Shown piece by piece: positions 16,931 through 20,471 of a stretch of 37,216 nucleotides of DNA. Numbering within the stretch: position 1 is the stretch's first letter; each line of letters opens with the position of its first letter. The notes beneath the pieces were generated by a model. The model made no database searches, was not told the origin of the DNA, and saw only the letters and a list, made by a program, of their open reading frames with translations. This DNA comes from Sphingobacteriales bacterium. Lineage in GTDB: Bacteria; Bacteroidota; Bacteroidia; Sphingobacteriales; Sphingobacteriaceae. The stretch covers positions 1 through 37,216 of the forward strand of contig JAATFW010000343.1 of NCBI GenBank assembly GCA_015654985.1, written 5' to 3'. A program made the position numbers and the translations under genes.

Positions 16931-17322
16931 TGATGAATGCATTAAAGTACCAGTACCTGGCCGTTATATGGTCAGTCCTGGTGCTCATCCTTTGTGATAT
17001 GCCAATGGGTGCTACCGATGGAGTGCCGGTATTCGAGGGCTTTGATAAACTGGTCCACACCGGTTTCTTTTTTGTTTTATCGGTTTTTATGTTCTATGGA
17101 AAAATCAGGCAACATAAAAGCTATTCATTCCGTATAATAAGCGTTCTTACAGTTTTTCTTATTTCTGCTTCTTTTGGCGGCCTGATAGAATTGTTGCAAT
17201 GGAAGGTCTTTACTTACAGGTCTGCTGACTGGTGGGACTTCTTTTGTGATGTTGTGGGATCTGCAATGGGTGTTTTTAGTTATATTTTTCTTCATAGAAC
17301 AGGATATGAAAAGTCTGCGTAA
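16930..17322 (+). CDS. VanZ-like family membrane protein
   Basis: 130 aa; MTVS-less TM protein with FDKLVHTGFFFVLSVFMFYG and GLIELLQ...RSADWWDFFCDVVGSAMGV; start overlaps the gcvH stop. Confidence 0.85.
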   Translation: MMNALKYQYLAVIWSVLVLILCDMPMGATDGVPVFEGFDKLVHTGFFFVLSVFMFYGKIRQHKSYSFRIISVLTVFLISASFGGLIELLQWKVFTYRSADWWDFFCDVVGSAMGVFSYIFLHRTGYEKSA

Positions 17323-17440
17323 TTTTTTGTTTGTTACTGTTTTGTTCTTAAGCTTAAGTTCCTGCGGCCTGTTCAGGAAGAAATGTAATTGTCCTCATTT
17401 TTACGGAAACCAGCCGGGGAGAACTGCAGCAGAAAAGTAG
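17306..17440 (+). CDS. Small cysteine-rich lipoprotein (44 aa)
   Basis: MKSLRNFLFVTVLFLSLSSCGLFRKKCNCPHFYGNQPGRTAAEK: signal peptide with LSSC lipobox; start overlaps the VanZ-like ORF by 17 nt. Confidence 0.65.
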   Translation: MKSLRNFLFVTVLFLSLSSCGLFRKKCNCPHFYGNQPGRTAAEK

Positions 17441-17464
17441 AAGATAAATTCCTTTCTTTTTTTG

Positions 17465-17489
17465 CTTATTTGGATTTAATTCAAATAAG
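17465..17489. promoter_or_regulatory. 25-bp near-perfect palindrome, candidate metalloregulator operator for feoAB
   Basis: CTTATTTGGATT-T-AATTCAAATAAG; 11 of 12 arm positions pair (only 17473 G / 17481 T mismatched). Confidence 0.7.
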
Positions 17490-17500
17490 GCCTATCTTTG
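17469..17500 (+). promoter_or_regulatory. Bacteroidota-type promoter for feoA
   Basis: TTTG (17469-17472) - N20 - TATCTTTG (17493-17500), 15 nt before the ATG at 17516. Confidence 0.65.
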
Positions 17501-17515
17501 GAAAGTTTAAAAAAT

Positions 17516-17734
17516 ATGAAGCTATCACAACTGAAACCAGGGCAAACGGGTATTATCAAGGAATTTACAGATCTTGAAATGTCAATTAAGTTAATGGAAA
17601 TGGGATGCCTCCCGGGTGAATCTATTTGTGTAGAAAGGTTCGCACCTCTGGGCGATCCGATGGCAATTACTGTATCCGGTTATCAGTTAAGCCTTCGTAA
17701 GCTTGAGGCTTCGACGATTATATTACATAAGTGA
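17516..17734 (+). CDS. feoA: Ferrous iron transport protein A
   Basis: MKLSQLKPGQTGIIKEFTDLEMSIKLMEMGCLPGESICVERFAPLGDPMAITVSGYQLSLRKLEASTI; directly before feoB. The ORF-track start at TTG 17498 lies within the putative -7 box. Confidence 0.93.
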   Translation: MKLSQLKPGQTGIIKEFTDLEMSIKLMEMGCLPGESICVERFAPLGDPMAITVSGYQLSLRKLEASTIILHK

Positions 17735-17737
17735 TAG

Positions 17738-19852
17738 GTGAGCGGTGATCTGAAGGTTGCTCTAGTTGGAAACCCCAACACAGGAAAATCTACTCTTTTT
17801 AATGTTTTAACCGGTTTAAATCAGAAGATAGGGAATTTCCCCGGGGTTACCGTAGATAAAAAAACAGGTACCTGCAAGCTTCCCGATGGTAGAAGTGCCC
17901 TTATAGTTGACCTTCCGGGTACTTATAGCCTGTATCCCAAAAGTAAAGACGAAAGCATTGTTTTTGAAATTCTCGCTGATAAAAGCAATCCTGTACATCC
18001 CGATATTATTGTAATAGTTTCTGATGCCTCTAATCTTAAACGTAACCTCCTGCTTTATACTCAGGTAGCCGACCTTAAAATTCCGGTTCTTATCGCTCTT
18101 AATATGATGGACCTGACAAAAAAGGCGGGTACTCATATTGATATTGATAGTCTTTCATTAAAGCTTGGCGTTCAGATAGTACCTGTTTCTGCCCGTCAGG
18201 GTGAAAATATAGACAAGCTAAAAGAAGCGATAAGTTTTACTTCTGTCGTTCCGCTGCAGCACGATACTATTGAGGTTAAGGAGCTTGCTCCTGGTTTAAT
18301 CAGTAAGATACAGGAGGAACTGCATTTGGATAAACCCTACACGGCTCTTCAGTTTGCCCATCAGCATGAGAATCTGCGGTTTCTGTCGAAACAGGAGAGC
18401 GACCGGGTAGAAGAGATTGAACAGGAGTTTTCTTTCCATTCACAAAAAGCGCAGGCAGCCGAAACGATTGCCAGGTATCATTTTATTAACGGCCTCCTTT
18501 CTGACACGGTGAAGTATAAGGCCGGTGTAGAAGCTGAAACATTCAGTAATAAGATTGACAGAGTACTTACCCACAAAATATGGGGATTCTTTATCTTTTT
18601 TGCTGTACTCTTTCTGATCTTTCAATCTATTTTTGCATGGTCTGAATATCCGATGTCGCTGATAGAGGCTCTCTTTGTGTGGCTTACTGAGCTTGTGCAT
18701 AAGCTGTTGCCGGCAGGAGTATTTACGGCTCTCCTTACTGATGGAATTCTGGCTGGTTTAAGCGGCGTTCTTGTCTTTATTCCTCAGATTGCCATTCTTT
18801 TTGCCTTTATATCCATTCTGGAAGATACCGGCTATATGTCGAGGGTAACCTTTATGATGGATAAAATAATGCGTAAAGTAGGGCTTAACGGTAAGTCGGT
18901 TGTTCCGATGATCGGCGGACTTGCCTGTGCCGTCCCCGCTATTATGAGTACCCGCAATATAGGGAACTGGAAAGACAGGATGATTACCATTATGGTGACT
19001 CCTTTGGTAAGCTGTTCGGCCCGTCTGCCAATATATACTGTACTGATCTCTTTGGTTGTGCCGGATAAGAAGGTAGCAGGCCTTATAAATATGCAGGGTA
19101 TAGCTTTGATGGCAATGTATGTGCTGAGCATTACAATGGCAATTTTTGTTGCCTGGGTAATGAAATATCTGCTGAAAGCGCGTGAAAAAGGTTATTTTAT
19201 TATGGAACTTCCGGTATACCGCCTTCCACGCTGGGATAATGTGCTGCTGACAATGTATGAAAAGGTAAAAACCTTTGTATTCGAGGCGGGAAAGATCATT
19301 ATAGCTATTTCTATTGTGCTTTGGGTACTTGCAACTTACGGCCCCCCGGGGAAACATGCCGAAATTGAAAAGAAATACCGCTCTGCCGCATATGTAAATA
19401 AGTACAATACTGAAGAACTTAACCTGCACCGTTCGTCCGAAATGCTGGAAACTTCTTATGCCGGGGTTATCGGGAAGGTTATTGAACCCGTAATCAAACC
19501 CCTTGGTTACGACTGGAAAATTGGTATCGCCCTTATTACCTCTTTTGCCGCACGGGAGGTATTTGTTGGAACAATGGCTACTATTTATAGTGTCAGCAAC
19601 GATGATGCACATATTTCTTCGGTAGGCGAAAAGATGCATCAGGCGCGTAACCCTGAAACCGGCCTGCCTGTATTTACTCTGGCTTCATCCTTCTCTTTAA
19701 TGGTCTTTTATGCCTTTGCCATGCAATGTATGAGTACTCTTGCTGTAGTTTACAGAGAGACAAAGAGCTGGAAATGGCCCCTTATTCAGTTTGTTTATAT
19801 GACAGCGCTGGCTTATATTGCGAGCCTGATAGTCTATAACTTGCTTAAATAA
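17738..19852 (+). CDS. feoB: Ferrous iron transport protein B
   Basis: 704 aa, GTG start; G1 GNPNTGKSTLFN, GNFPGVTVDKKTG, DLPGTYSL, NMMD; multiple TM segments. Confidence 0.97.
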   Translation: MSGDLKVALVGNPNTGKSTLFNVLTGLNQKIGNFPGVTVDKKTGTCKLPDGRSALIVDLPGTYSLYPKSKDESIVFEILADKSNPVHPDIIVIVSDASNLKRNLLLYTQVADLKIPVLIALNMMDLTKKAGTHIDIDSLSLKLGVQIVPVSARQGENIDKLKEAISFTSVVPLQHDTIEVKELAPGLISKIQEELHLDKPYTALQFAHQHENLRFLSKQESDRVEEIEQEFSFHSQKAQAAETIARYHFINGLLSDTVKYKAGVEAETFSNKIDRVLTHKIWGFFIFFAVLFLIFQSIFAWSEYPMSLIEALFVWLTELVHKLLPAGVFTALLTDGILAGLSGVLVFIPQIAILFAFISILEDTGYMSRVTFMMDKIMRKVGLNGKSVVPMIGGLACAVPAIMSTRNIGNWKDRMITIMVTPLVSCSARLPIYTVLISLVVPDKKVAGLINMQGIALMAMYVLSITMAIFVAWVMKYLLKAREKGYFIMELPVYRLPRWDNVLLTMYEKVKTFVFEAGKIIIAISIVLWVLATYGPPGKHAEIEKKYRSAAYVNKYNTEELNLHRSSEMLETSYAGVIGKVIEPVIKPLGYDWKIGIALITSFAAREVFVGTMATIYSVSNDDAHISSVGEKMHQARNPETGLPVFTLASSFSLMVFYAFAMQCMSTLAVVYRETKSWKWPLIQFVYMTALAYIASLIVYNLLK

Positions 19853-19865
19853 TAATTTTTCTTTT

Positions 19866-20471
19866 GTGGATAAGGTTAAAATACTTTCCAAATACATTCC
19901 TGAAGAAGCTGCATTTCTCATTAGCCGCTGGATCGATTATTTTAAATGTGATTTCAAAGTATCAGGAAACAGGAATACCAAATTCGGTGATTTCAGGCCG
20001 GGACAGAATGGAGAAAATGACCGTATCTCGGTAAACTACGATCTTAATTCTTATGCTTTTCTTATAACTACAGTGCATGAATTTGCACATCTTGTAACTT
20101 GGAAGGAACATAAAGGCAGGGTAAAACCTCATGGAGCCGAATGGAAGCTTAATTTCAGGAAAATGATGCAGCCATTTTTTGAAAAAGAGATTTTTCCTGA
20201 TGACCTTCATAAGGCTGTTACCCGGTATCTTGCAAATCCTGCTGCCTCGAGCTGCAGTGATATCAGCCTGTTCAGGGCTCTGAAGAAATATGACAGAGAT
20301 ACAGGTTTTAATACGGTTGAAAGTCTCCCTGTTAAAACAGTATTTATGTTAAAAGATGGAAGGACCTTTCAGAAAGGCCATCTTCTAAGAAAGCGCTATA
20401 GCTGTAAGGAAATAAATAGCGGAAGGGTTTATCTTTTTAATCCTATGGCAGAAGTATTTCCGGTTAAGTAA
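19866..20471 (+). CDS. SprT-like zinc metallopeptidase family protein
   Basis: 201 aa; VHEFAHLVTWKEHKGRVKPHGAEWKLNFRKMM (HExxH plus downstream H). Confidence 0.85.
   Translation: MDKVKILSKYIPEEAAFLISRWIDYFKCDFKVSGNRNTKFGDFRPGQNGENDRISVNYDLNSYAFLITTVHEFAHLVTWKEHKGRVKPHGAEWKLNFRKMMQPFFEKEIFPDDLHKAVTRYLANPAASSCSDISLFRALKKYDRDTGFNTVESLPVKTVFMLKDGRTFQKGHLLRKRYSCKEINSGRVYLFNPMAEVFPVK

Follow-up and report, generated by a model that had tools for sequence, protein, structure and literature searches.

A predicted Fur box of the Bacteroidota type overlaps the feoA-feoB promoter in a Sphingobacteriales bacterium

The window, a stretch of 37,216 nucleotides that constitutes contig C119 of a 4.7 Mb assembly in 355 contigs, carries a ferrous-iron uptake locus in which a palindrome and a promoter precede feoA, feoB and a SprT-like gene (Table 1). 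The nearest named feoB genes are those of Arcticibacter, Daejeonella, Pedobacter and Mucilaginibacter, which places the organism in or near the Sphingobacteriaceae. The SprT-like gene, encoding a metalloprotease, is probably the third member of the feo operon, and Fur of Riemerella anatipestifer bound the promoter of sprT in that species (PMC5609570). Reading by eye also showed, at about 17309-17441, a short ORF (roughly 44 codons) whose start resembles that of a lipoprotein (MKSLRNFLFVTVLFLSLSSCGLF); it lies upstream of the operator, between it and a VanZ-like gene.

Table 1 Features of the feo locus in the window and loci of the same genome that carry the box.
Feature	Location	Strand	Evidence or remarks
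Operator palindrome, 25 bp, near-perfect	17465..17489	.	sequence, genome scans, base frequencies per column at 57 feoA loci
-33 element TTTG	17469..17472	+	inside left half-site; -7 box at fixed distance
-7 element TATCTTTG (TAnnTTTG)	17493..17500	+	20 nt between TTTG and -7 box; consensus from PMC9723704
feoA	17516..17734	+	PF04023, E 2.3e-20; ATG at 17516
feoB	17738..19852	+	PF02421 (E 6e-56), PF07670, PF07664; TIGR00437 above cut-off
SprT-like gene	19866..20471	+	PF10263; downstream of feoB in 47/80 relatives
Box locus: feoAB	C119 (window)		intergenic match to ATTTRGAWTNAWTCYAAAT
Box locus: TonB receptor with divergent AraC regulator	C106		
Box locus: TonB receptor then PepSY_TM	C271		
Box locus: TonB receptor	C107		two boxes
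Box locus: DUF6686-ferritin	C148		two boxes
Box locus: porin-like/imelysin pair	C115		
Box locus: hemA-hemCD	C108		2-mismatch site, tentative
Box locus: aconitase	C123		2-mismatch site, tentative

The palindrome reads CTTATTTGGATTTAATTCAAATAAG and forms a 12-1-12 inverted repeat centred on T17477, in which G17473/T17481 is the sole non-complementary pair. Every element of its first description, namely 25 bp, 12-nt arms, a single central base and one mismatched pair, is confirmed in the sequence. Elsewhere in the window there is no palindrome with 12-nt arms, at least 11 of 12 complementary pairs and a spacer of 0 or 1. Dinucleotide shuffling of the whole window produced at least one equally good palindrome in 20% of the shuffles, and shuffling of the 200 nt before feoA produced one in 0.6%. 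The symmetry by itself is modest-to-moderate evidence, and the case for the palindrome as a real feature therefore rests on its conservation in relatives and its recurrence in the genome.

With up to two mismatches allowed, the box was found before feoA at 56 of 80 related feoB loci, as compared with 3 of 76 for the reversed control; the relatives are phylogenetically related, so that these locus counts do not represent independent events. Column frequencies computed over 57 boxes (the 56 from the feoA upstream regions of relatives plus that of the window) revealed that conservation runs two bases past the 19-bp core (17468-17486) on each side, with TT before and AA after, which defines a conserved unit of 23 bp at 17466-17488. 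The two halves are not equivalent: TTTG occupies the left half at 52 of the 57 loci, while the mirror position of the right half is mostly TTTA, with TTTG in 8 of 57. This asymmetry is as predicted for a -33 element that lies inside the operator. At 50 of the 52 loci with a left-half TTTG, a -7 box stands exactly 19-20 nt downstream, being a perfect TAnnTTTG in 26 and TAnnTTGY in 24, and each of the two motifs was seen just once at other spacings. Since the left half supplies TTTG with a -7 box at a fixed 19-20 nt, both the -33 element and the spacer lie under the operator, and the initial proposal that the palindrome overlaps a -33/-7 promoter ahead of feoA-feoB is borne out by this fixed geometry across relatives.

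The box also recurs within the same genome. Scanning with the 19-bp core pattern ATTTRGAWTNAWTCYAAAT at up to two mismatches yielded 19 genome matches versus 2 for the reversed pattern; ATTTRGAWTNAWTCYAAAT was drawn partly from the feo site, whose own core ATTTGGATTTAATTCAAAT is one mismatch away, and what is independent in this result is the number of recurrences. The 23-bp pattern, at up to three mismatches, occurs at 5 places in the genome versus 0 for the reversed control. Thirteen of the 19 core matches are intergenic, and 10 of these, distributed over eight loci (Table 1), precede iron, haem or Fe-S genes; the remaining 6 of the 19 fall within coding sequence and were taken as chance. 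In the upstream regions of fur and dtxR, the box was absent at up to three mismatches.

Conservation in relatives, together with the iron-gene regulon of the genome itself, supports the first-pass annotation in its reading of the palindrome as an iron operator and upholds the 19-bp core with 9-1-9 layout that it had delineated. That annotation left the choice between Fur and DtxR undecided; the evidence now favours Fur, on the strength of a published box, genomes devoid of DtxR and the mntH upstream regions. We consider the palindrome highly likely to be a Bacteroidota-type Fur box, and hence a predicted operator for Fur. A Fur protein (PF01475, E 7e-29) is encoded on contig C135, where its gene is flanked by a rel-like gene and purA, and its closest solved relatives are mostly Fur proteins. 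The genome also encodes another member of the Fur family, on C352, and a single protein of the DtxR family, on C265.

The closest published counterpart is the Fur box of R. anatipestifer, ATTTAGAATTATTCTAAAT, which is supported by EMSA (PMC5609570). In that organism, which is a distant member of the Bacteroidota whose boxes combine motif prediction with fragment-level gel shifts, the RhuB promoter was also examined by EMSA with Fur (PMC10986502), and feoAB is Fur-regulated and has a Fur box (PMC10434265). The two boxes share a length of 19 bp, the 9-1-9 layout, ATTTRGAWT half-sites and a position upstream of feoAB and TonB receptors, and by eye the window core is identical to the R. anatipestifer consensus at 14 of 19 positions. 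Unlike the R. anatipestifer box, the conserved unit here reaches 23 bp, and its left half carries TTTG and thus doubles as a -33 element. Counted against the Fur reading is that the feo site has TTTGG/TTCAAAT rather than TTTAG/TTCTAAAT. The classical E. coli Fur box, GATAATGATAATCATTATC, is likewise a 19-bp 9-1-9 inverted repeat placed over the promoters of iron genes, but its sequence is essentially unrelated, with about 4 of 19 positions alike by eye; the classical consensus is quoted in the abstract of PMC5609570 and in the text of PMC7976709, and the site table of PMC5609570 supports the form ATTTAGAAT. The feo site is thus very probably an ordinary Fur box, new to the studied genome and of a type known elsewhere in the phylum.

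Among the alternatives, an operator for the DtxR/MntR-family protein encoded on C265, answering to iron or manganese, appears improbable. The gene is present, and half-sites of the TTTAGATT type are likewise seen in a putative site ahead of mntH (TTTTAGATTAATCTAATT), but that site lacks the central base and has a different layout, and the feo-type box was found in 0 of 30 mntH upstream regions at up to two mismatches. DtxR/IdeR and MntR boxes are inverted repeats with TTAG-like half-sites. The box described here shares these two features, yet it differs in layout, is missing before mntH and persists in genomes with no DtxR match. Of 148 genomes sampled from the class, 15 gave no match to DtxR (PF01325), and all 15 have Fur-family proteins. 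Two of them, G035 (a closed genome from the same family as the studied organism) and G112, keep the box regulon, which is therefore not confined to genomes with a DtxR-family protein: at up to one mismatch they hold 7 boxes (control 0) and 9 boxes (control 1), respectively, all intergenic. The G035 boxes precede a TonB receptor with a divergent AraC regulator, another TonB receptor and the DUF6686-ferritin genes (two adjacent boxes), and two of the G112 boxes precede Fe-S assembly genes. In favour of the DtxR alternative, the feoA upstream region of G035 has no box, so that the case for the feo site is its membership in the box regulon. The feoA upstream regions of three other DtxR-less genomes (G119, G121 and G112) have matches with two mismatches.

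The DtxR-family protein itself points towards manganese. Its best score in NCBIfam is against the MntR model, below the cut-off; dtxR adjoins mntH in three genomes of the family (G070, G098 and G124), and G035 is without both genes. From this adjacency, the joint absence in G035 and the 0 of 30 mntH boxes, we infer that manganese regulation is the more likely role of the C265 protein, which sets the iron box apart from mntH, the probable target of that protein. An even-centred DtxR-type pattern, TTTAGATTAATCTAAA, was also tried and rejected, as it is not enriched in the genome (7 matches versus 6 for the control). The best TTTAGATTAATCTAAA match lies before mntH, and most relatives are without it, partly because dtxR often sits between. 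Upstream of mntH (contig C23; L124, about 1316-1350), TTTTAGATTAATCTAATT overlaps CTAATTTATATATTAG, a repeat common to L199 and L200 that may represent an MntR operator.

Recognition by the second Fur-family protein, Zur- or PerR-like, or sharing of the box between the paralogues, is still less probable: the C352 protein exists and paralogues can share boxes, but the targets are iron, haem and Fe-S genes and the protein matches every named Fur-family model weakly. As RNA, 17450-17515 folds at -12.7 kcal/mol with a G-U pair closing the mismatch, but a terminator or attenuator hairpin between the upstream small gene and feoA is scarcely credible and was rejected, given a z-score of just -1.7, the absence of a T-run after the hairpin, a position upstream of the inferred start and hence outside the feo mRNA, and a conserved feature, the -33 TTTG, that is strand-asymmetric.

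Under the favoured assignment to Fur, promoter geometry and general Fur biology suggest repression with iron as the co-repressor. When iron is plentiful, a Fe2+-loaded Fur dimer would occupy 17466-17488, masking the -33 TTTG together with most of the stretch that separates it from the -7 box; RNA polymerase would be excluded, and transcription of feoA-feoB, probably along with sprT, would not start. Under iron scarcity, Fur would come off the DNA and the cell would produce its ferrous-iron importer. These results support the presence of a Fur box of the Bacteroidota type in Sphingobacteriaceae and supply a set of candidate targets, and the consensus TTATTTRGATTNAATYYAAATAA could be used for predicting iron regulation where experiments are lacking.

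The details that may be new are limited to the promoter overlap and a switch of the -7 box in Pedobacter. In F. psychrophilum (Flavobacterium), the -7 consensus is TAnnTTTG and the SM5 variant is TAnnTTGY (PMC9723704). In 24 feoA promoters, mostly from Pedobacter (most of L060-L084, L090 and L101), the operator and TTTG are kept while TAnnTTGY, placed 20 nt downstream, replaces TAnnTTTG, and this Pedobacter-type -7 box resembles the SM5 motif. Tentatively, and with more doubt than confidence, we suggest that the left half-site is held to TTTGG by its second role as the -33 element, such that Fur and RNA polymerase of Sphingobacteriaceae would contend for one set of four bases, and that this arrangement was kept while the -7 box switched between TAnnTTTG and, in Pedobacter, TAnnTTGY, the latter possibly being recognised by another sigma factor. 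Separately, the DUF6686 gene beside the ferritin gene has two boxes both in the studied genome and in the DtxR-less G035 (L012:3386-4360 and L171:2529-3675); DUF6686 is possibly a protein, so far uncharacterised, that responds to iron.
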